Below, piece by piece: positions 1,385-21,285 of a stretch of 40,100 nt of DNA (the first letter of the stretch is position 1; each line of letters starts with the position of its first letter). The DNA is taken from assembly GCA_017538965.1 (NCBI GenBank), contig JAFYHU010000088.1, forward strand, positions 1 to 40,100. The letters are read 5' to 3'. The notes under the pieces were generated by a model. It was not told where the DNA came from and made no database searches. It worked only from the letters and a program-made list of their open reading frames with translations. The position numbers and the translations under genes are program-made. This stretch comes from Oscillospiraceae bacterium. GTDB lineage: Bacteria > Bacillota > Clostridia > Oscillospirales > Oscillospiraceae.

Positions 1385-3364
1385 ATGGCAAATCAAAATC
1401 TGCTTACTGGAGCGGTAATGCTGGAAACAATGTGGAAAACAAGACATCAAGATTTGCTGGATCTTGTGTCCCCTTTTGTTTTCTATGCTGTTGCAAAGGT
1501 GTGCTCGCCAAAGGAGGCTATTGATCAGCAGCGCGTACTCGATATTGTGAGGAGTGAATTCGGTTACACTGATATGCCCCCCACAATCATTGAACGCGTT
1601 TTCAAGAGAAACCCAAGACTCTTTCAGAGAGAGCATGGACAATACAAACTGAACAAAAGCCTGGACTCTTCAGTATCCGAAATTGAGAAGAGAAAAGATG
1701 ACTGTGAAAAGAAAATTCAGACTCTTGGAAATCAGCTCGTTCCTTACCTTGAGAGCCATATAAGAACTAACCGAAAGTATACTCTTGACCAAGCAATAGC
1801 TGCGCTTCAAGGATTCTTTTCCAGGCAGGGTATATTTCTTGGCACAAATCAGATGGAGGAACACACCGAAGAAATTCGAGGGCGGGAAGAAGATTACTAC
1901 ATTGCACAATATCTCTATGAGAAGAGAGACTCTCATGCAATCGAATTTGATTATGCTATTGATCTTGTTAAAGGTTATTTTCTTCAATCAGCATTATATC
2001 TACAGGCAGGAAACGGGAACATTACCACATCTACATACCGAAATGTCTCTTTTTACTACGACACACCATTTTTGCTTCGCCTACTGGGATATAAGACCTC
2101 TGAAGACGAGAAAAGCGCTGGTGAATTGCACAAGGCTCTAGAAAAGCAGAAAGGAAGCTTTTTCTATTTTCCACAGACACAACATGAAATTGAAGGAATC
2201 TTAAACGCATATCAACGTAATATTGGACATTCGAGTTCAGTGACCTTGGAAGGGCTAGATGAGAGGAAGTATTCTTCATCAGATGTACAGAGGTTAAAAC
2301 AGACATGGGAAGGAAAGCTCAATTCGGCATTTAAGACTTTCCTTGCGGCAAGACCTGAATATCCAAAGAATCCGGATGGTTCTATTGATGATAGTTTTGT
2401 TATTAATGAAGATGAACTCGGTATAATACTGAAAAAGAAGATTTTCTGGCGTGTTCAAGAAAGCATGGATGCAGATATGGAGTCTGTCTTGGGTATCCAT
2501 AAACTGCGTGGGAGTGTTCAATCAGAAGAAATAGAACATTGCAAGGCTGTTTTTGTCACAACAAATACGGCATTAGCAAAAGAAGTTAACAAGTATTACA
2601 GACGAAATGTCAACGCAGATACATTTCCGCTCTTAATAACGGATTCTGATTTAGCGGCACTTACGTGGATAAAATGCGGTTCTGTTGGTGATTTACCTGA
2701 ACGGCAGCTTTTGCGTAATGCTTATATGGCAACTCAGCCAACACCGGAAGTGTTGGAAAAGTTTGGTCAAGTATTAGATCAAATGCAAGCTGAGGGAAAA
2801 GTAACGGAAGAAGTGGCAGTTGCCATACGTTCTAGCAGATATACCAAGAAAGAAATACTTTTTGCATCGTTTGAAGGCGATGAGGGCATAGACGAAAACC
2901 TTATCCTCAGGATTGAAAATAAATTACGTGAAGAGTATTCCAATGATGCAAGAGAAGACGAACGTCATAAAGCCGAACTACAACGAAAAGCGGAAAACCA
3001 TGCCCGATTAGAAAATTCAGATAAGCAGGCAAGACTCATAGCTGCAAAGGCCATGGATGACCAGTTGGCAAGAGAAAGAAGAATTGCCACATGGACCGGC
3101 CGTTTTTGTGTTCTTGCGGCAATCATTGGTCTCATTTATTCATTAGTAGGCTTAAAGAGCAACAACATCTTTCTAATTATTGCACTGGTAGCATTTGCTG
3201 TGTTTTCAGTCATTTCCATAATAGATACATCAAAGGGAAAAGAGAAGATTATAGACTTATGGCTGGTTAGACGAGCTAACAGGAAACATGAAAAAGTATT
3301 TACTGAGAAACAAGCGGAGTATAGAGCTATAGCGGACGGAAATAGCGGGAAGGCAAATGGGTGA
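1385..3364 (+). CDS. Large PIN-like nuclease-related protein with C-terminal membrane anchor
   Basis: 659 residues with AAGGAGG nine bases before the ATG. Residues 1-95 look like a helical, winged-helix-type region. Residues about 217-430 have a PIN-like pattern: a strand ending in an Asp (FYYDTPFLLRLLGY, near 222), an acidic helix (HEIEGIL, near 267), TTNTALA near 391 and LLITDSDLAALTW near 419. Residues 520-565 are charged, coiled-coil-like and Arg/Lys/Glu rich. Two hydrophobic helices follow at about 571-589 and 594-614, then a basic tail of about 45 residues. A membrane-tethered RNA or DNA nuclease is the natural reading, but the catalytic set is not proven. Base composition is clearly more AT-rich than the core genes to the right, consistent with transfer. 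Confidence 0.65.
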   Translation: MANQNLLTGAVMLETMWKTRHQDLLDLVSPFVFYAVAKVCSPKEAIDQQRVLDIVRSEFGYTDMPPTIIERVFKRNPRLFQREHGQYKLNKSLDSSVSEIEKRKDDCEKKIQTLGNQLVPYLESHIRTNRKYTLDQAIAALQGFFSRQGIFLGTNQMEEHTEEIRGREEDYYIAQYLYEKRDSHAIEFDYAIDLVKGYFLQSALYLQAGNGNITTSTYRNVSFYYDTPFLLRLLGYKTSEDEKSAGELHKALEKQKGSFFYFPQTQHEIEGILNAYQRNIGHSSSVTLEGLDERKYSSSDVQRLKQTWEGKLNSAFKTFLAARPEYPKNPDGSIDDSFVINEDELGIILKKKIFWRVQESMDADMESVLGIHKLRGSVQSEEIEHCKAVFVTTNTALAKEVNKYYRRNVNADTFPLLITDSDLAALTWIKCGSVGDLPERQLLRNAYMATQPTPEVLEKFGQVLDQMQAEGKVTEEVAVAIRSSRYTKKEILFASFEGDEGIDENLILRIENKLREEYSNDAREDERHKAELQRKAENHARLENSDKQARLIAAKAMDDQLARERRIATWTGRFCVLAAIIGLIYSLVGLKSNNIFLIIALVAFAVFSVISIIDTSKGKEKIIDLWLVRRANRKHEKVFTEKQAEYRAIADGNSGKANG

Positions 3365-6313: not shown

Positions 6314-6400
6314 GAGAAGATAATCTGAGGAACAGCCAAAAAACTTACACAATTTCCTGATGGTTTTATCATCAAGGCTCCGCTTTTCATTCATTTTCAT
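6314..6400 (-). pseudogene. Fragment of an XRE-type HTH regulator
   Basis: The minus strand encodes DDKTIRKLCKFFGCSSDYLL, the usual end of an XRE/HTH_3 domain (last two helices). The first half of the helix-turn-helix is missing and the frame then runs into non-coding sequence. Nothing else is recognisable in 6175-6440. It is a relic, with no expected function. Confidence 0.45.
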
Positions 6401-7288: not shown

Positions 7289-7547
7289 TCAGACTGACAG
7301 CATCTCGGCGTACTTTGGCTGATCCTCGGCGGGAATTCTGAGGGCTTCCATAGCGTTTTGGGCAGACCAGTTCATGCTCTCCATCAAAGTTTTAATATTG
7401 CTGATTTCTTTCTGTTGCATGCCCTGCTGCATACCGCGGCTAAAGCTTTCATTTCTGACTTCTTCAAATGCTTTGCACATATTCTCCACTCCTTGCAAGG
7501 TCTTCCCGGCGTTCGCGCTCTCTGCGAGCCTGTTCTGTCTCCTGCAA
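7289..7547 (-). pseudogene. Rpn nuclease gene with internal deletion
   Basis: The first 19 codons (TTG start at 7547) match the Rpn gene at 615, then at 7491-7492 the sequence jumps to the C-terminal portion of such a protein (VENMCKAFEEVRNESFSRGM... ending in KYAEMLSV). The nuclease core with its active site is missing and the join is out of frame: the first frame stops soon after the junction. A 69-residue frame from TTG 7498 could in principle yield the C-terminal piece alone. The gene keeps its own terminator at 7227-7252. Inactive as a nuclease. Confidence 0.8.
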
Positions 7548-7617
7548 TTCGATCACCCCATTTCATCATCAATATTCTACAGGAGAATTAAGACTTTTTC
7601 AAGAATGAATTCCGGTT
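7491..7617. repeat. Direct repeat copy 2 (5' end of Rpn gene plus promoter)
   Basis: Same-orientation counterpart of 559-685, 127 bp, 9 mismatches. Its right end at 7617 coincides with the point where the nucleotide-sugar epimerase frame is lost, marking an insertion or recombination boundary. Confidence 0.9.
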
Positions 7618-7769
7618 ACCTCGTAGTAGTCGTTCATGTTGTCGAGGCTGATGACGGTTCCGCCGGCCATCTCGCGCAGCAGACGGATGACCAGATAGGC
7701 CCCGATGAATCCCGGAGAACCGGTGACGAGGATGGTTTTGTTGTTGAGATCGACCTGCGTTTTTGCCAT
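7599..7769 (-). pseudogene. NAD-dependent epimerase/dehydratase, truncated after about 50 codons
   Basis: Starts with ATG at 7769 behind GGAGGG, three bases after the dehydrogenase gene, and encodes NKTILVTGSPGFIGAYL, the Rossmann nucleotide-binding motif of SDR-type nucleotide-sugar epimerases, then ISLDNMNDYYE. In UDP-glucuronate 4-epimerase-like proteins this is the first fifth of the enzyme. At 7617/7618 the frame enters the Rpn repeat and stops at 7599 (56 residues in total). The missing four-fifths is nowhere in the window. The partner UDP-glucose dehydrogenase would make the substrate for such an epimerase, so the pathway step is lost or supplied elsewhere. Confidence 0.85.
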
Positions 7770-7772
7770 GGC

Positions 7773-9266
7773 TCAATCCCTCCGGAACAGATCGCGGGTA
7801 TATACTTTCTCGCTGACGTCGTCCAGGTCGGCACTGTAGCGGTTGGCGATGATGCAGCTGCACATTTTTTTGAATTTCTTCAGATCGTTGACGACTTTGC
7901 TGCCGAAGAAGGTGCTGCCGTTTTCAAGCGTCGGTTCATAGATGATGACCGTCGCACCCTTGGCTTTTATTCGTTTCATAATACCCTGGATGGAGGACTG
8001 ACGGAAATTGTCGCTGTTGCTTTTCATGGTAAGACGGTATACGCCGACAACAACTGGACGCTCCTTATCAGGGTTGAAGTTTTCGCTTCCTGTATATGCG
8101 CCGGCGATGTCGAGGACGCGGTCGGCGATGAAGTCCTTGCGGGTGCGGTTGCTCTCGACGATGGCCTGAATCAGATTCTCGGGCACATCCTGATAGTTGG
8201 CGAGGAGCTGCTTGGTGTCCTTCGGCAGGCAATAGCCGCCGTAGCCGAAGGAGGGGTTGTTGTAGTAGTCGCCGACGCGGGGATCCAGGCAGACGCCCCT
8301 GATGATGCCCGCGGTATCCAGATTCTTGATTTCGGCATAGGTGTCGAGCTCGTTGAAGAAGCTGACGCGAAGGGCCAGATAGGTGTTTACGAAGAGCTTG
8401 GTGGCCTCGGCTTCGGTGGTACCCATGAAGAGGGTGGGAATGGGGTTCTTGACGGCGGCCTGCTGCAGGAGAGCGGCAAAGATGCGGGCGGCGTCTGCGT
8501 TCGCGGGATCGCAGCCCACGATGATGCGGCTGGGGTAGAGGTTGTCATACAATGCTTTGGATTCGCGCAGGAACTCCGGGCTGAAGAGGATGTTGTCCAT
8601 GCTCAGCTTTTCGCGGATGTGGACGGTATAGCCGACCGGGATCGTCGACTTGATGACGACGGTCGGTTTTTTCTCTCGGGAAGCAGTTGCGGATTTGATC
8701 AGGGTCAGGACGGATTCCACGGCGGAGCAGTCAAAATAATTGGTCTTGGGGTCATAATTCGTCGGGACGGCGATGAGAATGAAGTCGGCATCGGCGTAAG
8801 CGGCGGCGCCGTCGGTGGTGGCGGCGAGGGTGAGGCGGCGCTTTCCGGCTTTCGCTTCGGTAAAGAACTTCTCGATATAGTTGTCCTGGATGGGGGATTG
8901 ATACGCGTTGATCATCTCGGCCTTTTCGGGCTTGGTGCAGACGGCGGTGACGGGATGGTGCTGGGAGAGCAGAACGGCAAGAGAGAGACCGACGTAGCCG
9001 ACACCGGCAACGGCGATTTTACAGGTGTGATCCACGGTGACGGGTTCGCCGCTCTGCTCGACGAACATCTCGGTGAGGTCAAAGCTGAGCACGGAAGCGA
9101 GGGCTTCGAGCTGCCGGACAGAAGGGGTGTACAGACCGTTTTCGAGATTGGAGAGAATGGGGCGGTTCATACCGGTCAGTTCGGCGAGCTTTGTCTGGGT
9201 CAACTTCATGGCTTTGCGCCTGGCGACCACGGTCTCGGCGAGAAGGGAAAGGGAAAGAGTACGCAA
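7773..9266 (-). CDS. HTH-domain/UDP-glucose 6-dehydrogenase fusion
   Basis: 497 residues, TTG start at 9266 with AGGAGG eight bases upstream. Residues 10-66 are a canonical XRE helix-turn-helix ([19 protein letters not shown], then [17 protein letters not shown]). Residues 83-95 ([13 protein letters not shown]) begin a complete nucleotide-sugar dehydrogenase of the short HasB type, with the catalytic Cys346 in [12 protein letters not shown] and [10 protein letters not shown] near 206. The enzyme would oxidise UDP-glucose to UDP-glucuronate with two NAD+, for capsule or exopolysaccharide. Joining a DNA-binding domain to this enzyme is unusual and suggests autoregulation; TGACA/TGTCA repeats occur around its promoter. 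The downstream operon partner is the truncated epimerase. Confidence 0.9.
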
Positions 9267-9279
9267 GGAAAAAACCTCC

Positions 9280-9372
9280 TGACAAGAATGTCAATTAAAA
9301 CGACAAGAAATTATGTTAATATGCACTTTGATTGCGGGAAGCATAATAGCACGATACAAACCAACTTGTCAA
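9280..9372 (-). promoter_or_regulatory. Promoter with GACAAG/CTTGTC repeats before the HTH-dehydrogenase gene
   Basis: On the minus strand TTGACA (9367-9372) and TATTAT (9343-9348) are 18 bases apart. A dyad TGACA-AGAA-TGTCA lies at 9280-9293 directly before the ribosome site; another GACAAG occurs at 9302-9307 and CTTGTC at 9365-9370 overlapping the -35. These are candidate binding sites for the HTH domain of the encoded protein. The rest of 9373-9536 shows nothing that can be supported. Confidence 0.55.
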
Positions 9373-9536
9373 TAAATAGAAGAATAAAATGTTAGCAGAT
9401 GACTTCATTCTGCTGAAAATTTTGCGAGAAGTCGAGCAAAGTTTTCAGTAGAAATACTCGGAGATTCTTGAATAAACCTGTTTGGGTCAAACTCTCCAAA
9501 TCTCTTGAAAAGTGCTCAATGATCTGGAAGCGTAAC

Positions 9537-10914: not shown

Positions 10915-11020
10915 CCGAATTTGGTCGACATTCTCCGAAATTCGGTAATATAATGAAGCAATTATAACATACCCGTTTTACAAGTCAAGCCGAATTTCGT
11001 CGAAACTCTCTGAAATTCGG
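10915..11020 (-). promoter_or_regulatory. Promoter bracketed by two CCGAATTT...AAATTCGG dyads
   Basis: TTGACT (10983-10988) and TATAAT (10961-10966) on the minus strand are 16 bases apart, with a start near 10954. Two 31-bp dyads with the same perfect 8-bp arms CCGAATTT/AAATTCGG and similar 15-base centres lie at 10915-10945 (about +9 to +39) and 10990-11020 (just upstream of the -35). Centre-to-centre distance is 75 bases. The arrangement fits two operators clamping one promoter. 11021-11181 shows nothing further. Confidence 0.8.
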
Positions 11021-11181
11021 AATTAAAAAAGAAGAAATTGAAGAATGGATAAGCTGAGCTGTAGAAACGAAGGGTAACAAGGGCGCTGATCGTTGATTTC
11101 AGCTTGACTACAAAAGTCGATTGGGCGTAGCTGGCATTGCGCCTTAATAAAAACGATCACGCCACAAAATTTCAGCTTGTC

Positions 11182-11219
11182 AAAAAAAAGAGCAGCGGAG
11201 CGATGAACTCCGCTGCTCT
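11182..11219 (-). terminator. Intrinsic terminator of the kinase/HTH operon
   Basis: AGAGCAGCGGAG (11189-11200) pairs with CTCCGCTGCTCT (11208-11219); on the minus strand the stem is followed by a run of T. It lies six bases after the stop codon at 11225. Confidence 0.95.
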
Positions 11220-11224
11220 TGCAG

Positions 11225-12034
11225 TCAGTCTTTTCGGCGCTGCATGACTTCCGCTTTGGAAAACAGCTTGTATTTGGCGTCGGTGCGGATTGGATGCAGT
11301 TTGTCTCTTCGCATCAGGTCATCGATGTTCTGACGAGAACACTCGAGAAGGCTGCAGGCTTCAGACGCGCTGACGACGCGATCCTGGACGTAATGATGAA
11401 AGTCAAGCAGCGTCAGCGGGACCGTCACACCGTGCATAAACAAATCCCGATGGGAAATCATCGCCTGAGCATTCCAGTATACGCCATAACCGTCCGGCTG
11501 AACTTCAACGGTGCTGAACCGATCCTGATTGGAAAGATAAGGCGCACATGCAGGATCAGCGACTTCCTGAGTATCAATTATCTTCGTCATGCCGTTTCGG
11601 AAGAACACCAGAAGCAGTGGTGCATCCAGAGGAATGATATCTTCCACTTTGGTCTGCCAACGACGGATGAGAAGCTCCGGCGGATTGTCCGGGGATATTT
11701 CCTCCAGATAACAGTCGTCCTGTTCGCATCGACCCTTTGTGAGCATAAGAAGGGAAAACTCATCGTATTCTTTCAGACCGTTGTCTCTCAGTATTTGCCC
11801 GATATTTTGCCGGTCCTGCGGAACAATCCGCTGCTGCACCCAGCGTCGGCTCCAGCTGCTGTCAATGCTGTATATGCCGCGATTTACAAAAGGGGAAAGG
11901 ATAGGAGATGTTTCCCATGGGTCTGCATGATCAGGCAGTTCGATATAGAATGATTTGGGGATCTCGTAATAAATCAGGTAACCAAGAACTTTATCCTTCG
12001 GCATCGTTTCATCCTTGACAGCGAAGAGCCTCAT
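11225..12034 (-). CDS. HTH-domain partner of a HipA-like kinase
   Basis: 269 residues, ATG at 12034 behind GGAGGTGG. The N-terminal two thirds (ILSPFVNRGIYSIDSSW, then IVPQDRQNIGQILRDNGLKE and LLMLTKGRCEQDD) recalls the N-terminal domain that accompanies HipA-type kinases. The last 50 residues form an excisionase/MerR-like helix-turn-helix (SASEACSLLECSRQNIDDLM). The start lies 26 bases inside the end of the kinase gene, so the two are translationally coupled. A role as DNA-binding regulator and possible antitoxin of the kinase is inferred from order and domains; the exact family was not recognised. Confidence 0.7.
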   Translation of the reverse strand: MRLFAVKDETMPKDKVLGYLIYYEIPKSFYIELPDHADPWETSPILSPFVNRGIYSIDSSWSRRWVQQRIVPQDRQNIGQILRDNGLKEYDEFSLLMLTKGRCEQDDCYLEEISPDNPPELLIRRWQTKVEDIIPLDAPLLLVFFRNGMTKIIDTQEVADPACAPYLSNQDRFSTVEVQPDGYGVYWNAQAMISHRDLFMHGVTVPLTLLDFHHYVQDRVVSASEACSLLECSRQNIDDLMRRDKLHPIRTDAKYKLFSKAEVMQRRKD

Positions 12035-12830
12035 ATGCCTGCCACCTCCTCCAAATCATTTCCCAGGTACGGTCTAACCGATACTTGCTGATTGCCGCGT
12101 CAAGGCCGTCAAACAGAGCGGAGCGGTCTGTTTCCTTTAATGGACAAACGCGCGGAAATTGATCCTGAGGGATCAGATGGAGATTGTCCCACGCGGACCG
12201 CGAACCGACAAAGCACTGTACCGGCTTATCTGCCATCGGGTCCTCTTTTTCGAGCGCTGCATCATCCGGACTCCGGCAGTAGAAGGAAACACCATGATCG
12301 AACAGCGGAGCGAGTCTGACAGTTTTCCGATACCGGTTGATCAGAACTTCTATGTTTGCTCCGTGTCTGTCCCGGTTCAGGATCAGGTAATCCACGAGGA
12401 GCATCTGATAGATGTATTTTGCCCAGCCATTGCGGATGCAGAAATCAAGAGGAGATTCATCCGGCAGCTTATTGCTGTCGTAGTAAGCATCCAGAGCGTC
12501 CTTCTTTTCACCGCGCTCCCTGAAATTATGTGACGCACAGAGCCATGTGCGGATAGGTTTGCTGTCCACAATGATATCTGCATGGATCAGCTGATAGGAT
12601 AGATGAGGAATGTCAAGTATATTAAGCAGTCGATCCGCGATAATTTCATTGACGGACTCATGCCCCACAATGCCGTGAAAGGAGTCATAGTTAGAGAGTT
12701 TATAGTAAATTCGACCGTCAGGCGTATCCTCCTGAGACTTTAGAAAAGAGCCTGCTGTGCCGGATGAATTGCGGATCCTGGACCAACTGAGGTAAGTCAG
12801 ATCCTGCGGGGTACAGATGATTTGTTCCAC
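12009..12830 (-). CDS. HipA/CtkA-like Ser/Thr kinase
   Basis: 273 residues, GTG at 12830 with AGGAGGTG upstream. Kinase signatures of the HipA group are visible: a nucleotide-binding Lys in IYYKLSNYD, a Glu in GHESVNEIIADRLL, the catalytic loop DYLILNRDRHGANIEVL and the metal-binding DHG in PLFDHGVSFY. HipA-type kinases phosphorylate translation factors or tRNA synthetases and act as toxins of two-gene systems. The protein is shorter than E. coli HipA because the N-terminal subdomain seems to be carried by the separate overlapping gene. Transcribed divergently from the second DUF4143 ATPase. Confidence 0.8.
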   Translation of the reverse strand: MEQIICTPQDLTYLSWSRIRNSSGTAGSFLKSQEDTPDGRIYYKLSNYDSFHGIVGHESVNEIIADRLLNILDIPHLSYQLIHADIIVDSKPIRTWLCASHNFRERGEKKDALDAYYDSNKLPDESPLDFCIRNGWAKYIYQMLLVDYLILNRDRHGANIEVLINRYRKTVRLAPLFDHGVSFYCRSPDDAALEKEDPMADKPVQCFVGSRSAWDNLHLIPQDQFPRVCPLKETDRSALFDGLDAAISKYRLDRTWEMIWRRWQAYEALRCQG

Positions 12831-12849
12831 AATATCACCTCCTGCCTGC

Positions 12850-12878
12850 AGGATATCATGCTACTTTAAGAATGTCAA
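12850..12878 (-). promoter_or_regulatory. Promoter of the HipA-like kinase operon
   Basis: Minus-strand TTGACA (12873-12878) and TATCCT (12850-12855) are 17 bases apart. The 8-bp palindrome CCTGCAGG overlaps the end of the -10 element (from about 12845) and may be an operator for the HTH partner. Confidence 0.65.
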
Positions 12879-12939
12879 GTAAAAACGACTGCATAGATTA
12901 CGAAGAAAGTAAAAAGTGTGTATCTTGTGTGAAAAATCC

Positions 12940-13032
12940 TGCGTAAATACGCAAAAATTTTACGAGTACCGCTTGCTTTCTAAGGGAAAGATATGGTACA
13001 ATCAATTCGTTAAAAAAATGCGTATTTACGCA
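12940..13032 (+). promoter_or_regulatory. Promoter bracketed by two TGCGTA-centre-TACGCA palindromes
   Basis: TTGCTT (12973-12978) and TACAAT (12997-13002) are 18 bases apart. TGCGTAAATACGCA lies at 12940-12953 upstream of the -35 and its exact reverse complement TGCGTATTTACGCA at 13019-13032 just after the predicted start (about 13009). Centres are 79 bases apart. This is the same layout as at 10915-11020 but with an unrelated palindrome. Confidence 0.8.
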
Positions 13033-13054
13033 GGTTTGTTTTGAGGTGTGCAAG

Positions 13055-14356
13055 ATGGAGCTGGAGAGAAAAGAGTACCTTCAAAAGCTGATCGACAAGA
13101 AAGATAACGGAAGGGTCAAGATCATTACCGGTATCCGTCGCTGCGGGAAATCATACCTGTTGTTTGAGCTTTATACAAAGTATCTTCAGGAACAGGGTGT
13201 TGAAGAGGAGCAAATCATCGGCATTGCGTTGGATGAATTGTCTAACGCAAAGTATAGAGATCCTTTTAAACTGGACCAGTACATCAGGGAGCAAATCACG
13301 GATAAGCAAAAAAGATATTACATTCTGATTGATGAAATCCAGTTTGTGTCTGAAATTCAAAATCCGTATATTGACGATCCTCAGGCGAAAATCAATTTTA
13401 TCGATGTGGTTCTTGGCCTCATGAGAATCAAAAATGCTGATGTTTATGTGACGGGAAGTAACTCGAAGATGCTGTCCTCGGACATTCTCACACAGTTCAG
13501 AGATCGAGGGGATGAGATTCGTGTTTACCCTCTTTCGTTTGCGGAGTTCTATGCTGCGTATCAGGGGGACAAGCATAACGCATGGGTTGATTACTATACC
13601 TATGGAGGAATGCCGGTTGCGCTGACACTCTCTTCGCATGAGCAGAAGAGCCGATATCTCAGAGATTTATTCACCAGGACATATTTGAAGGACGTAGTCG
13701 AGAGACATTCAATTCAAAATGACACTGAGGTACTTGAGGATCTGCTGAACATCCTTGCATCTGCGATAGGTTCCTTAACAAACCCGACCAAACTCTCCAA
13801 CACCTTTGATAGTGAGAAACATTTGAAAATCTCATCCGCAACTATAGACAAATATCTTGGCTATTTTTCGGAAGCATTCCTGCTGTCCAAGGCGGAACGG
13901 TATGACGTCAAAGGGAAAAAGTATATGAAAACTCCTGCCAAATATTACTTCACTGATGTTGGGTTGCGTAACGCGAGACTGGGATTCAGACAGCAGGAAG
14001 AGACCCATATTATGGAGAATGTGCTCTATTGTGACTTGCTGAGACGAGGATTTGATGTCGATGTAGGTGTCGTTGAGCACAATTACAAGAAGGAAGACGG
14101 AAAGAGTGCAAGGGTGCAATTGGAGATTGATTTCGTAGTCAATCGCGGAAACCAGCGATACTACGTTCAATCAGCGTTGTCTATTGCCGACCCGGAAAAA
14201 CGGGCAAAGGAGATTAACTCTTTAATAAAAGTTCCGGATTCATTTAGAAAAATCGTTGTGGTCGGAGATAGGATCAATCCATGGAAGGATGAAAATGGAA
14301 TCCTTTACATTGGGATAGAGCAGTTCCTCCTGGATGAGAAAGCAATTGATATGTAG
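13055..14356 (+). CDS. AAA_14/DUF4143 family ATPase (copy 2)
   Basis: 433 residues from ATG 13055 with TTGAGGTG six bases upstream. Walker A TGIRRCGKS at 25-33, Walker B YYILIDEIQ near 88, sensor VTGSNSKML, arginine-rich FRDRGDEIRVYPLSFAEF, winged helix NPTKLSNTFDSE...SSATIDKYLGYF, and C-terminal DUF4143 nuclease-like fold with LEIDFVVN and YYVQSALS. It aligns end to end with the 9585-10901 protein, including KYYFTDVGLRNARLGFRQ, and is clearly a paralogue. The active-site Lys of classical PD-(D/E)XK enzymes is replaced by Gln/Ser in both. Its promoter carries its own palindrome pair, different from that of the paralogue. Cellular role unknown. Confidence 0.9.
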   Translation: MELERKEYLQKLIDKKDNGRVKIITGIRRCGKSYLLFELYTKYLQEQGVEEEQIIGIALDELSNAKYRDPFKLDQYIREQITDKQKRYYILIDEIQFVSEIQNPYIDDPQAKINFIDVVLGLMRIKNADVYVTGSNSKMLSSDILTQFRDRGDEIRVYPLSFAEFYAAYQGDKHNAWVDYYTYGGMPVALTLSSHEQKSRYLRDLFTRTYLKDVVERHSIQNDTEVLEDLLNILASAIGSLTNPTKLSNTFDSEKHLKISSATIDKYLGYFSEAFLLSKAERYDVKGKKYMKTPAKYYFTDVGLRNARLGFRQQEETHIMENVLYCDLLRRGFDVDVGVVEHNYKKEDGKSARVQLEIDFVVNRGNQRYYVQSALSIADPEKRAKEINSLIKVPDSFRKIVVVGDRINPWKDENGILYIGIEQFLLDEKAIDM

Positions 14357-14462
14357 GAAAGCAAGAAAGTGGGAAAGACAGAGCAGCCCATTATAATGCA
14401 GTGCTTTCCGCTTGCGTCTTTTGGAAAGAATACTGTGATGAAGCGAGTTTCTGAAAATATTT

Positions 14463-14540
14463 TCTCTGAAAAAATATTCAGAGACATGACGTGGGCAGTC
14501 GGATGGGTTAACATGATATCAATCTGAATAAGAATTCAGA
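14463..14540 (+). promoter_or_regulatory. Promoter bracketed by two TCTGAA...TTCAGA dyads
   Basis: TCTCTGAA (14463-14470) and TTCAGAGA (14477-14484) form a perfect 8-bp-arm dyad just upstream of a weak -35 (ATGACG, 14486-14491); TAACAT (14509-14514) follows after 17 bases. A second dyad, TCTGAAT-AAGA-ATTCAGA, lies at 14523-14540 at the predicted start. Centres are 58 bases apart. Third case of a dyad pair around an ATPase promoter in this cluster. Confidence 0.65.
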
Positions 14541-16027: not shown

Positions 16028-16086
16028 TTGACATCAGAATGAGAATTTACTATAATACATCTAAATGAAAGAAATCTTTCATTTAG
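16028..16086 (+). promoter_or_regulatory. lexA promoter and 26-bp perfect palindromic operator
   Basis: TTGACA (16028-16033) and TATAAT (16051-16056) are exactly 17 bases apart. From 16061 to 16086 lies a perfect inverted repeat with 11-bp arms CTAAATGAAAG and CTTTCATTTAG and a four-base centre AAAT, covering the predicted start and reaching the ribosome site. It is unlike the Bacillus SOS box (GAAC-N4-GTTC) and is probably the self-operator of the following LexA-like repressor. Confidence 0.85.
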
Positions 16087-16097
16087 GAGGCGGCCTT

Positions 16098-16700
16098 ATG
16101 AGAAGCAAAAGCAAAGAAACAATCGCGGAGATTGAGCAGTTTGTCCGCGATCAGAATGACCGGTACGGCCGTTCGCCCACGATGCAGGAGATCGGCGATG
16201 CGGTCGGCATTTCTCTTGCGACCGCTTACAGGTATATCAAGGCAATGGAGAAGGACGGCCTGATCGATTACTGCGGCGTCAGGGGCATCACTGCCGCAAA
16301 AAGCAGGCCGGAACAGACAGGGCTTCCCGTGATCGGGCAGGTGGCCTGCGGCACGCCGATTCTGGCGGAGGAGAACGTTGAAGAGTATGTCAGGCTCCCC
16401 GTATCGCTGATCGGCCGGGGGAAGTTCTTCATCCTCCGTGCGAAAGGCAATTCCATGATCAATGTCGGGATTGAAGAGAATGACCTTGTGATCGTCCGAC
16501 AGCAGGATACCGCAGATCCCGGCCAGATCGTGGTTGCGCTGATCGATGACGAGGCAACGCTGAAGAGATACTGGCCGGAACCGGAGAACAGGCGTATACG
16601 GCTGCAGCCGGAGAATTCCGAGATGGATGATATTTATGTTGACTGCTGCCAAATTCAGGGCGTAGCGGTAAGAGTGCTGAAGAATCTGGAAGGAAAGTAG
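16098..16700 (+). CDS. LexA-like autocleaving repressor
   Basis: 200 residues from ATG 16098 (AGGAGG seven bases upstream; an upstream ATG at 16065 would lie in the operator). Residues 1-65 form a LexA-type winged helix (YGRSPTMQEIGDAVGISLATAYRYIKAMEKDGLI). Residues 78-200 form an S24 peptidase domain with cleavage site VACG (Cys84-Gly85), catalytic Ser119 in GNSM and Lys156 in ATLKRYW. LexA is cleaved on RecA filaments to induce SOS genes. The operon continues with two paralogous genes not usually linked to LexA, so this may be a dedicated local repressor rather than the global one. The palindrome in front supports autoregulation. Confidence 0.85.
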   Translation: MRSKSKETIAEIEQFVRDQNDRYGRSPTMQEIGDAVGISLATAYRYIKAMEKDGLIDYCGVRGITAAKSRPEQTGLPVIGQVACGTPILAEENVEEYVRLPVSLIGRGKFFILRAKGNSMINVGIEENDLVIVRQQDTADPGQIVVALIDDEATLKRYWPEPENRRIRLQPENSEMDDIYVDCCQIQGVAVRVLKNLEGK

Positions 16701-18038: not shown

Positions 18039-18067
18039 AAAAAGCGGAGGCATCTGGGGATGCCTCC
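18039..18067 (-). terminator. Intrinsic terminator of the zinc-ribbon/TPM/radical SAM operon
   Basis: GGAGGCATC (18046-18054) pairs with GATGCCTCC (18059-18067); on the minus strand it is followed by GCTTTTTATT. It lies about 30 bases after the stop of the radical SAM gene and also after the end of the convergent plus-strand operon. Confidence 0.85.
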
Positions 18068-18098
18068 CTGCGAAGAAGTAATGGATGAGAAGTCGGGG

Positions 18099-19076
18099 TT
18101 ATTGCCAACAGTCGGGATCTCTGCCTTGCCATGTTCCTGTTTTCGCACAGGCGATGCACTTTGCGCCGCCGCGGCAGCGGGCGGCGGCGGGACAGGCGGA
18201 ACACGCCTCGGGGACGGGAGCATCGTGCAGAGCGCGCATGATTTCGCTTGCTGCCAGCGTTTCCTCCAATTCTCCGTCGAAGATGTTTCCGATCGTATAG
18301 GGCAGGCGACGGCAGGGCATGAGCGTGCCGTCGGCCAGCAGGATCAGCAGATTCCCCCCGGCATCGCAGTGATAACAGCCGGAATAAGACACGTCCCGGA
18401 ACTGCAGAGCACGGACACATTTTACGGGCGTGAAGCGCTCGAGCAGATGCGCCGTGCGCACCAGACGCCGGAAGTCCTCTCCCGTCAGACTCCGTTCGTC
18501 GCGATCTTCTTCCGCCGGAATTACGACCCGATCAAACCAGAGCTTGTCCACGCCGTGAGCCCGGCAAACGAGCGCCAGCGCCGGAAGGGAACGGCGGTTG
18601 AGCCGCTGGGCGGTAAAGGAAACCTGGACAGGCACTCTGCAGCGCTTCAGCCGGTCGATTCCTTCCAGAGCGCGCCGGAAACTGCCTTCGCCGCGGATCC
18701 GGTCGTGGACGGGCTCTGTCCCGTCCAGACTGATCTGCACGAATTCCGGCTTCAGAAGGGCGAGATGCCAGGCCGTTTCCGCATCGACCATGGTGCCGTT
18801 GGTCAAAACCGCGAGACGGTGGCCGTGCCGCCGAATTTCCTCCGCCAGCAGGAAAAAGTCCGGATGCAGCAGTGGTTCGCCGCCGGTCAGGTTGATCTGC
18901 GCGGACAGGCTTTCTGCCTGCAGGAAGCGTTCATAGCGCTCAAGCGAAGAGAAAAGTTTCTCCCGGCTCATTTCACAGCTGTAATTATCCTGGTAGCAGT
19001 GCCGGCAGCGCAGATTGCAGCGATGGGTGATATGCCACTGCAGGATGTGCCGCCCGGTAAAAACGGTGTCGGGCAT
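18099..19076 (-). CDS. Radical SAM/SPASM-domain maturase-like protein
   Basis: 325 residues. Cys20, Cys24 and Cys27 (CNLRCRHC) form the CX3CX2C site for the SAM-binding 4Fe-4S cluster; LTGGEPLLHP is the usual GGE motif. The C-terminal third carries a SPASM-type set: a Cys pair in CYHC, MPC about 20 residues on, then CSACPAAARCRGGAKC and a final DPDC, binding auxiliary clusters. SPASM enzymes modify peptides or proteins (thioether bonds, Cys-Tyr-derived cofactors, formylglycine). Its ATG lies three bases after the stop of the TPM gene with no good ribosome site, so translation is probably coupled. The Cys/Ser-rich tail of that TPM protein is the obvious candidate substrate; this is inference. 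Confidence 0.85.
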   Translation of the reverse strand: MPDTVFTGRHILQWHITHRCNLRCRHCYQDNYSCEMSREKLFSSLERYERFLQAESLSAQINLTGGEPLLHPDFFLLAEEIRRHGHRLAVLTNGTMVDAETAWHLALLKPEFVQISLDGTEPVHDRIRGEGSFRRALEGIDRLKRCRVPVQVSFTAQRLNRRSLPALALVCRAHGVDKLWFDRVVIPAEEDRDERSLTGEDFRRLVRTAHLLERFTPVKCVRALQFRDVSYSGCYHCDAGGNLLILLADGTLMPCRRLPYTIGNIFDGELEETLAASEIMRALHDAPVPEACSACPAAARCRGGAKCIACAKTGTWQGRDPDCWQ

Positions 19077-19079
19077 GGA

Positions 19080-19919
19080 TCAGAAGCTGCTGGAACCGCC
19101 GCCGCCGCAGCTGGAACAGCTGCTGCCGCTCGAACAGCTGGAGCAGCTGCTTCCCGAGCTGCTCGACGGAGGATCGTACTCGCGCTTTGTTCCCCGGCTG
19201 ACGACGGCAGCGGTCGTAAAGGCGAACGCCGTCGCCCCGATCACCTGCGCCATGTCAGACTTTCGAAAGGTGGTCGAACTGCGGAACACCCGGCCGAGCA
19301 TCAGCATCAGCCCGACCATCAGGGCAATGCAGGCATTGGAAAAGTGCTTCATCGGCTGGGCGATGCGGTTGCCGCGCATGAGGCTGTTCATTTGGGAATA
19401 GGCTTTCTGAGAAGCTTTATAATACTCGCCGCGGGTCAGATCATTGCGGACGTTGTTGGTAATGCTGTTTGCGCGCGAAGAAGTCAGCACGTCGTACATG
19501 GCGCCATAGCTCTGGATGCTGACCTTGCGGATCTCCATGTTGATGACAAGAATGCCCGCACTTTCCAGTTCGAAAAGCGAGCGCCGCTTGAGACGGGCCT
19601 GCTCGATTTCGTCCGAAGCATACTCCCGGGTGGACCAGAAAGCCACGCTGCCGTACTCCGTCAGCGGCTGCATGTCCTCGAGCAGCTGCCGCTCCTCCGT
19701 CGGCGTCAGCAGGTCAATATCGTCCTCGATGACGACACGGTAACCGGTATCGGCATTGCGCCATTCGAGGCCGGTATCGGTCAGAATACCAAGGCTGGGC
19801 ATGGCGGAGTAGGGGTTTACGTTCGGCGCGGCGAAGGCCGCCGCCGGCAGGAGAGAAAACAGGAGCAGGAGCAGCAGGACAGACGCTCCGAGCTTTCGGG
19901 AAAACACAGGCTTACGCAT
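19080..19919 (-). CDS. Secreted TPM-domain protein with Ser/Gly/Cys C-terminal tail
   Basis: 279 residues. Signal peptide at 1-31 (basic MRKPVFSRK, Leu-rich core, AAAFAA cleavage site). Residues about 55-185 match a TPM domain (TPTEERQLLEDMQPL, YGSVAFWSTREY, AGILVINMEIRKVSIQSYG). Hydrophobic helices follow near 196-212 and 226-242. The last 28 residues consist of Ser, Gly and Cys plus a final Phe, with two CSSC units (SGSSCSSCSSGSSCSSCG) and a GGGG run. Related TPM proteins often end in Ser/Gly-only tails; the four regularly spaced Cys next to a radical SAM gene are what is unusual. Its start overlaps the zinc-ribbon gene by eight bases. Confidence 0.85.
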   Translation of the reverse strand: MRKPVFSRKLGASVLLLLLLFSLLPAAAFAAPNVNPYSAMPSLGILTDTGLEWRNADTGYRVVIEDDIDLLTPTEERQLLEDMQPLTEYGSVAFWSTREYASDEIEQARLKRRSLFELESAGILVINMEIRKVSIQSYGAMYDVLTSSRANSITNNVRNDLTRGEYYKASQKAYSQMNSLMRGNRIAQPMKHFSNACIALMVGLMLMLGRVFRSSTTFRKSDMAQVIGATAFAFTTAAVVSRGTKREYDPPSSSSGSSCSSCSSGSSCSSCGGGGSSSF

Positions 19920-21285
19920 GATCCTGCCCTCCTTTCTTGTTGAACTGGGGCGGCTTGCGGGTTGCCAGCTGCATCTGAAGACGGAAAGCCTTGTCGATCA
20001 GCGCAAACAGGATGACGGCCTCGGCAATGCAGACCCCGTAGAAGACGGCATTGTAGACCGGATCGGTCAGAAGAACAAGTCCGCTCACAATCAGGGCGAG
20101 CACGGTCAGAACCGTCGCCGTCTTCTGCGAGCGTATAAAAGCCGCCCGCCTTGCGGCGGCTTCCTCGTCGTTATAGCGCTCGCTGAGCCGTTTGGACTGT
20201 CTCCGGCACATGAGAACGCCGATGATCAGCAGCAGGCTCGTCAGCAGCAGCGCCGCTTCGGGCTTGAGGGTAAAGAAGAGGCTGAGCGCCGCAAACACCA
20301 GAAGCGCCGTACCTAAGGAGGCAAGCAGAAAGCGGAGCGGACTGATCGGAAAGTCGGCGACGACCTTCCCGGTCTGACCGTTGACCGAGGCATAGGTAAT
20401 GCGGTCTCCTTCCCGGTAGCTCATGAACCAGACGGGATAGAGCACCTGGTCGATCCGGGTGACTTTGGTCGGGACGGAGACGCCGGTAATGCCGACGGTA
20501 TGGGCGTGAGTCTCTTTTGCCGCGCGGTTGACCTCATCGTCTTCCAGCAGCTTTTCGGCCGTCAGGTTCTCAAAATATCTCTTTGCGTCGTCCGCGTACT
20601 TGCTCGAACGTTCGTCCGCCACATCGACATAGAAGCCGCTCAGGAAGCCCGGCGTGAAGGGCTTTCGGTCTTTCGTGTCAAAGGGAGCCAGACATTCGCT
20701 GATTTCATCATCAAAGGCCTTTGAGGCATCATGGGTAAAACCGTCATACGCGATGTCGACATCTCCTTTGATGGTGTACTGCTCGGTAACGAGATAATCC
20801 CCGTCACGGCTGGTACTGCTTTCCACATCCACCCTGGCTTCGCCTTTCTGTTCGACCGCATAGCTCCAGAAGGGCATATAGATCGCACGGAAGCCGTCGA
20901 CCATCTCGGCTTTTTTATACCGTGAGGGAGTAAAGATCGCCCGGCGCGCCGCTTTTCGATATTCACGCCGGCAGCGATTCCGGTCCACCTGAAAGGGAAT
21001 GATCCAACTGGGGTACTTCACCTTGCGCAGGCGATCGAAGAGGATCGAAGTACCTCCGCAGTAGGGACAGAAGGCAGCGGCATCGGTTTCATCGGTGGTC
21101 ATCAGGCGGGCTCCGCAGCTCGGGCAGGAATACACCCAGGCGTTATACTTTTTTTCGCGGGTCGCGTCCTTCTGCATGCTGTCAAACTGATAGGGATCAT
21201 AGCTGGTTTCACAGTAACTGCACTTCATCTGCTGGGATGCGATATCAAAGAGCAGATTCGCACCGCAGCCGGGACAGGCAATCAT
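19912..21285 (-). CDS. Zinc-ribbon membrane protein
   Basis: 457 residues from ATG 21285, eight bases after GGAGG (a GTG at 21291 is too close to the ribosome site). N-terminus has two zinc ribbons: CPGCG with CSYC, and CPSCG with CPYCGG at about residues 4-80. A soluble mid-region follows (KYPSWIIPFQVDRNRC, then GFRAIYMPFWSYAV). The last third has about four membrane helices (LRFLLASLGTALLVFAALSLF, LLLTSLLLIIGVLM and two more). TFIIB-type zinc-ribbon proteins of this kind are often encoded beside TPM-domain proteins in Bacillota; the joint function is unknown. First gene of a three-gene operon with overlapping or touching ends. Confidence 0.85.
   Translation of the reverse strand: MIACPGCGANLLFDIASQQMKCSYCETSYDPYQFDSMQKDATREKKYNAWVYSCPSCGARLMTTDETDAAAFCPYCGGTSILFDRLRKVKYPSWIIPFQVDRNRCRREYRKAARRAIFTPSRYKKAEMVDGFRAIYMPFWSYAVEQKGEARVDVESSTSRDGDYLVTEQYTIKGDVDIAYDGFTHDASKAFDDEISECLAPFDTKDRKPFTPGFLSGFYVDVADERSSKYADDAKRYFENLTAEKLLEDDEVNRAAKETHAHTVGITGVSVPTKVTRIDQVLYPVWFMSYREGDRITYASVNGQTGKVVADFPISPLRFLLASLGTALLVFAALSLFFTLKPEAALLLTSLLLIIGVLMCRRQSKRLSERYNDEEAAARRAAFIRSQKTATVLTVLALIVSGLVLLTDPVYNAVFYGVCIAEAVILFALIDKAFRLQMQLATRKPPQFNKKGGQDHA

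Follow-up and report, generated by a model that had tools for sequence, protein, structure and literature searches.

Paired palindromes at three ATPase genes

The stretch of DNA considered here (the window) is an entire contig (C85; 40,100 bases) of an Oscillospiraceae bacterium, whose assembly holds 3.39 Mb in 91 contigs. It carries three genes for predicted ATPases, each of which is accompanied by its own pair of palindromes. P0001 (9585-10901, minus strand; 438 amino acids) and P0002 (13055-14356, plus strand; 433 amino acids from its ATG) are AAA_14/DUF4143 ATPases with about 50% protein identity to one another, and P0003 (14573-15943, plus strand; 456 amino acids) is an ATPase_2/DUF234 ATPase. 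For P0002, comparison with orthologues favours the ATG at 13055 over a GTG at 13046. Profile hidden Markov models from PADLOC match P0001 (E 6.6e-110) and P0002 (E 1.8e-112) to PDC-S01, and P0003 (E 5.5e-40) to PDC-S27. Both are abundant candidate phage-defence families; an anti-phage role of the three proteins is putative.

At P0001, two 31-bp dyads of the form CCGAATTT-N15-AAATTCGG are located upstream (10990-11020) and on the side of the 5' untranslated region (10915-10945). P0002 is preceded by an upstream dyad with the 14-bp core TGCGTAAATACGCA (12940-12953, within a larger dyad at about 12929-12966) and by a downstream dyad with the 14-bp core TGCGTATTTACGCA (13019-13032, within about 13008-13044), both of which contain the shared core motif TGCGTAWWTACGCA. 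At P0003, the pattern TCTGAA-N6-TTCAGA is found upstream as TCTGAAAAAATATTCAGA (14465-14482) and downstream as TCTGAATAAGAATTCAGA (14523-14540). The dyad centres are 75 (P0001), 79 (P0002) and 58 bp (P0003) apart, and all six elements were re-located with these spacings where a preliminary description of this DNA had placed them. When scored against 100 dinucleotide shuffles, the pairs reach z = 12.5 (P0001), 9.7 (P0002) and 7.3 (P0003), with no shuffle scoring as high. The motif had further been claimed to be common within a pair and different between genes. Consistently, an assembly-wide search finds exact copies of each motif at its own two sites and nowhere else; one extra place with two mismatches exists for P0001 and one with a single mismatch for P0003, and for P0002 there is no other place with up to one mismatch.

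Do the dyads bracket promoters? The assertion that each gene has a recognisable promoter stands for P0001, where a sigma-70-like TTGACT-16-TATAAT (10961-10988, minus strand; 11/12 consensus bases) lies between the dyads. P0002 has a weak counterpart in the same arrangement (TTGCTT-18-TACAAT, 12973-13002, plus strand; 8/12), which falls under the threshold of a separate promoter scan. The assertion fails for P0003, whose sole promoter candidate (9/12) overlaps into the downstream dyad. On the plus strand, another promoter-like site (TCGACA-18-TATAAT, 10925-10954; 11/12) overlaps the downstream dyad of P0001, and this dyad might thus also govern a divergent transcript.

The dyads could in principle be insulating transcription terminators or messenger RNA hairpins around a cargo gene. 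Scans indeed call terminator-like hairpins at the dyads of P0002 and P0003. However, none is called at P0001, the upstream dyad precedes the -35 box wherever that box is known, and conservation includes the loop centre and the outer arms; on these grounds the terminator reading was rejected. Moreover, a shared private sequence is not needed for termination, and we regard this explanation as very unlikely.

The preliminary description also ascribed a predicted winged helix to all three proteins. This prediction draws on weak profile matches. Of 14 family members, four weakly match FUR (best 2e-4) and two the winged helix of MCM_C (best 3.9e-4), and residues 236-292 of the DUF234 profile weakly match MarR/ArsR winged helices (E 0.04-0.09). 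Searches of the PDB with P0002, an AAA_14 profile and a winged-helix profile returned nothing reliable; the DUF234 profile matched the archaeal ATPases 2qen and 2fna, TnsC and the AF1548 chain (0.0026). Residues 214-312 of P0002 match DUF4143, and its nuclease-like region keeps E357, D359, Q372, E386 and K399 and has no ExK. The PD-(D/E)XK-like region of P0003 reads FD..ECK.

Promoter, dyads and gene as a unit that changes neighbours

Searching GTDB genomes with P0002 yielded 16 loci. In twelve of them the relative is almost complete and has 65% identity or more, and the viral contig L173 carries a relative at 94% identity. Thirteen loci were compared (the window, L022-L032 and L173, excluding the 65% relative L033). 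By a strict pattern both cores are present in nine of these, the window and eight P0002 orthologues, at a distance of 78 or 79 bp; L028, L030 and L031 show the downstream core only, and L173 the upstream core only. Across the nine loci, the cores are 100% and 94% identical and the 36-bp dyads 83% and 80%, with values of 51-52% for the DNA between the dyads. The flank outside the upstream dyad (30%) and the sequence after the stop codon (25%) are both near chance.

The stretch that blastn finds in common to the orthologous loci (12930-14362, plus strand) begins in the upstream dyad, at its outer arm, and ends shortly after the stop codon. Of 11 near-complete blocks, eight start at 12930-12940 and three at 12973-13005 (L028, L030, L031), and all 11 end at 14352-14362. 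Around the units, tblastx matches were scattered, covered no more than 91 aligned residues each and had no common order, except for the end of a tape-measure gene. Because the block is conserved and its flanks are unrelated, promoter, dyads and gene appear to form one unit that changes neighbours. A corollary is that, since unit and motif travel without a conserved neighbour gene, the factor binding the dyads would most simply be the gene's own product. Presence is patchy even among close relatives: P0001 finds no match in the two same-genus genomes listed, and P0002 finds matches in three of the five listed, with best identities of 73%, 48% and 43%. In L025, a 30-bp stretch behind the P0002 orthologue (6342-6371) is 90% identical to the downstream operator of P0003, and the next large gene after it encodes an RRxGKS ATPase on an unrelated strand; the stretch may be what is left of a P0003 unit that was lost.

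Mobility of this kind raises the question of whether the cassette moves by means of the dyads, as sites of recombination or replication, with the promoter situated between them by accident. The change of neighbours and the coincidence of the left edge with the upstream dyad would fit such a role, as would the match of the DUF234 profile to the transposition ATPase TnsC. The right edge, however, is devoid of a dyad, and similarity simply stops at the stop codon. In addition, the second dyad keeps a set position some 30 bp ahead of the ATG. Of 24 genes of the P0001/P0002 clade, 18 have sigma-70-like boxes between the dyads, with no fewer than 9 of the 12 consensus bases (the mean is 9.8, compared to 7.9 for shuffles). 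We therefore give a role in recombination or replication little credence, if somewhat more than a role in termination.

What are the surroundings of the unit? In phage contig L173 (2880-4308) it is found between the tape-measure gene and dit. The end of a tape-measure gene is located directly upstream of the unit in L022, L026 and L031, and a tblastx match to this stretch is present in L024 as well, so that these four copies may be derived from phages. Neighbour scans of phage-contig relatives covered ten upstream and ten downstream neighbours from 37 loci, a non-random choice taking longer frames first. The upstream neighbours comprise four terminase large subunits (L194, L203, L210, L224), three integrases (L179, L228, L229), two helicases and one methyltransferase; downstream there are two portal proteins (L210, L226), two tape-measure proteins (L180, L192), two proteins of unknown function and four unmatched ones. 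Viral contigs scanned with P0001 and P0003 gave no relatives.

At L210, similarity to Streptococcus phage Javan105 breaks off at the stop codon of the terminase gene and sets in again where the ATPase gene ends. Terminase and portal genes are 15 bp apart in Javan261, and a MerR-family gene occupies that place in Javan105. Thus, the two marks of a moron, its own promoter and insertion between genes adjacent in related phages, are found together for L210 only and not for the copies in the window, where the scan of neighbours showed PDC-M03-like genes along with a LexA-like S24 gene and no phage late genes. The terminase-portal junction (L210 2193-3947; L295; L296), with an ATPase unit in L210, the MerR-family gene in Javan105 and nothing in Javan261, looks like a cargo hotspot.

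Enrichment, geometry and divergence of the operators

How widespread are such pairs? We scored 300-bp upstream regions for two dyads sharing one half-site, with all four half-sites compared and centres 30-110 bp apart, and expressed the result as z relative to 100 dinucleotide-shuffled versions of each region. The first sample (a phylum sample, the window's own genome, a family search and the GTDB P0002 loci) comprised 140 genes, 109 of which were kept at 80% identity; seven loci (L054-L056, L059, L064, L072, L075) had no scorable gene. Its controls were 150 genes minus 13 neighbours sharing the same intergenic DNA, leaving 137. The second sample came mostly from phage contigs and from more genomes of the family; 30 of its controls were dropped, and the remaining 228 were thinned to 214. 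L269 and L270 are of the DUF234 type and stand outside its count of 41 RRxGKS genes.

AAA_14/DUF4143 genes of the RRxGKS type exceed z = 5 in 21 of 59 cases in the first sample, compared to 4 of 137 controls (Fisher p 2.9e-9), and in 17 of 41 cases in the second, compared to 2 of 214 (p 1.6e-13). Enrichment over random genes had been named beforehand as the test that could refute the idea, and for this type it was upheld in both samples. Among DUF234 genes of the first sample, 5/18 exceed z = 5 (Fisher p 0.0011) and 9/18 exceed z = 3 (controls 9/137; p 1.2e-5). A few high-scoring ATPase regions, such as L090, resemble other repeats, and the controls above z = 5 (4/137; 2/214) would likewise speak for chance or generic repeats. 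Nevertheless, the shuffle tests, the two enrichments, the footprint and the fixed geometry leave chance with virtually no weight, and it was rejected on the basis of the dinucleotide shuffles and both control sets.

The geometry of the pairs is itself characteristic. In the P0001/P0002 clade, 27/32 genes have their best pair at a spacing of 67-95 bp (42/150 controls), and the centre of the second dyad lies mostly 24-38 bp before the ATG. Other RRxGKS genes favour a spacing of 39-41 bp (28/68 against 7/150 controls; in the second sample alone 10/41 against 15/214, p 0.002). In 24 clade genes picked for their geometry the dyads look bipartite, with maxima of four-way identity 2-6 and 11-16 positions from the centre and a dip at position 7, and each half-site might hence be contacted on two successive helix turns. 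Enrichment, footprint and geometry together point to conserved operators at the gene's own promoter, the promoter of P0003 being unclear.

Similar operators occur mainly in closely related genes. The window's own genome contains 16 DUF4143 matches; nine genes were found with P0001 and seven with P0003, and from these sixteen, ten with a pair were chosen for a cross-match matrix. The upstream dyad best matches its own second dyad in eight of the ten. The highest operator similarities are those between close relatives (L164/L166, L003/L124, L065/L007, P0002/L033, L129/L130), and in the clade operator similarity averages 0.44-0.52 for protein identities above 60% and 0.22-0.23 for lower ones. Which part of the protein does the operator follow? 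Among the 24 clade genes, operator similarity correlates with similarity of the winged-helix region (rho 0.29, p 0.0045), also when the AAA part is taken into account (partial 0.25, p 0.007), and the converse, AAA given winged helix, yields 0.02 (p 0.41). Of 27 protein windows, the partial correlation peaks at P0002 residues 226-265 (0.24, p 0.006). In clade pairs below 60% identity, the winged helix gives a rho of 0.22, compared to 0.04 for AAA and 0.05 for the nuclease-like part. Operator similarity thus points, by a modest signal, to the protein's own winged helix.

Several observations weigh against self-repression through private operators. More than half of the RRxGKS genes have z < 5 (38/59 and 24/41), one dyad being imperfect in some and nothing being present in others. 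Genes of the RQxGKT type are not enriched (2/25 at z > 5, Fisher p 0.23; rank test 0.04), and DUF234 genes are weaker in the second sample (3/15 at z > 5; 5/15 at z > 3). P0003 is without a clear promoter. In the ten-gene matrix L008 ties with P0001 and L019 fails, and some motifs are common to different genera (NPWW and some DUF234 genes). A family-wide Mantel test on 29 diverse genes, with five genes excluded by hand and two retained by eye, found operator similarity to track no protein domain. The test on the 24 clade genes of fixed geometry followed this null result, and its p values are uncorrected for that order or for the 27 windows. Covariation between palindrome and winged helix, put forward earlier as a check, was therefore modestly present in the P0001/P0002 clade and absent from the wider, more diverged set. 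The enrichment holds for RRxGKS genes in two samples, and the pairs are not present at every DUF4143 gene. Genes of the NPWW type scored above z = 5 in 0/7 cases in the first sample; the NPWW genes of L057, L058, L060 and L085 carry AGTATAC-like elements that by eye are alike between genera, unlike the private RRxGKS motifs. A TTAGTAA-like element in the DUF234 genes L106, L109 and L278 is, by eye, similarly alike between genera.

The family-wide null would fit dyads that are operators of one or more unlinked host regulators and not of the ATPase. Each gene would then require a host regulator of its own, given that none of the three motifs has an exact copy in the genome beyond its own pair of sites. 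Moreover, the motif is retained while all neighbours change, and the covariation in the clade points to the winged helix of the ATPase itself. We thus consider control by host regulators unlikely, though the least unlikely of the alternative roles for the dyads.

A candidate self-repressing cassette

Autoregulation with insulated specificities, as suggested in the preliminary description, is supported by the enrichment, by the privacy of the motifs in the genome and by the changing neighbours. Judging from these sequence comparisons, a self-repressing one-gene cassette with insulated specificity is the probable explanation. How might such a cassette work? We envision a scenario whereby each ATPase gene is autonomous and represses only itself. 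Its product, an AAA+ ATPase with a winged helix and a PD-(D/E)XK-like domain, would bind, as a dimer or larger oligomer, to the two copies of its own long palindrome. With one dyad upstream of the -35 box and the other in the 5' untranslated region, the effect would presumably be repression, keeping the promoter low and holding a putative anti-phage effector in check. Specificity would reside in the winged helix and change fast, which could permit many paralogues to reside in one genome without mutual repression and might leave a cassette briefly unrepressed upon entering a new cell. The cassettes change neighbours alone, sometimes as moron-like genes between late phage genes.

A more far-reaching and rather doubtful extension is that the private palindromes are also the target of the ATPase-nuclease. 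A resident cassette would then act against incoming DNA bearing the same palindrome pair, and cassettes of the same specificity would exclude each other like incompatibility groups, thereby driving the fast divergence of winged helices and operators among paralogues.

Self-repression by way of paired operators in mobile modules is a known feature of toxin-antitoxin systems and of the C proteins of restriction-modification systems. These employ a separate antitoxin or C protein, whereas here one gene would be the whole unit. Phage morons are autonomous units of promoter and gene between late genes. L173 and L210 are alike in this respect, but many copies, including those of the window, are chromosomal without adjoining phage genes. 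Orc1/Cdc6 initiators combine AAA+ and winged-helix domains and act beside inverted repeats near their own gene, and the DUF234 profile gives a weak Cdc6 match (E 0.068). Here, however, a promoter and not an origin is situated between the repeats, and the motifs are private. In defence islands, the winged-helix autoregulator BrxR is found at inverted repeats by its own promoter, as described in the available excerpts of PMC9122601. The likeness to BrxR/WYL proteins would extend to the predicted winged helix, the inverted repeats, the promoter and the defence islands; BrxR, however, is dedicated to the control of other genes, whereas in the present case the putative effector would control its own expression through a motif that each copy has to itself.

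PDC-S01 and PDC-S27, whose models the window proteins match, are described as ATPases fused to PD-(D/E)XK members, and PDC-S01 is reported to rank fourth in frequency among the defences of prokaryotes (PMC12988326, in excerpt). In rumen genomes, PDC-S01 is the most frequent individual locus (PMC13356809, in excerpt). The excerpted text of PMC12988326 makes no mention of private paired operators and states that validation is pending for most such candidates. Nor did open-licence literature, preprints excluded, yield a description of private paired operators or of regulation for these gene families; the one paper there that names DUF4143 does so in a listing. Self-repression through operators being known, what we propose as new is a candidate defence effector with its own insulated double operator in a one-gene mobile unit.

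A private operator would provide a handle on these proteins, because it predicts the DNA sequence that the purified protein should bind. It would also make specificity readable from genomes, explain how many paralogues could share one genome and render the promoter part of the mobile unit. If this holds true, the families would amount to a large natural collection of winged helices, each with its matching operator.

Other features of the window are situated outside the units. Three long open frames (1385-3364, 7374-9395 and 18060-19943; 659, 673 and 627 amino acids) have no Pfam match at E 1e-4. Two minus-strand genes (11225-12034 and 12009-12830), outside both the P0001 and the P0002 unit, are weakly similar to PDC-M03B (6.6e-4) and PDC-M03A (7.1e-11), respectively. 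P0003 is followed by the LexA-like gene (16065-16700), which combines an S24 peptidase with a winged helix-turn-helix and has a perfect 12-bp inverted repeat at its start.

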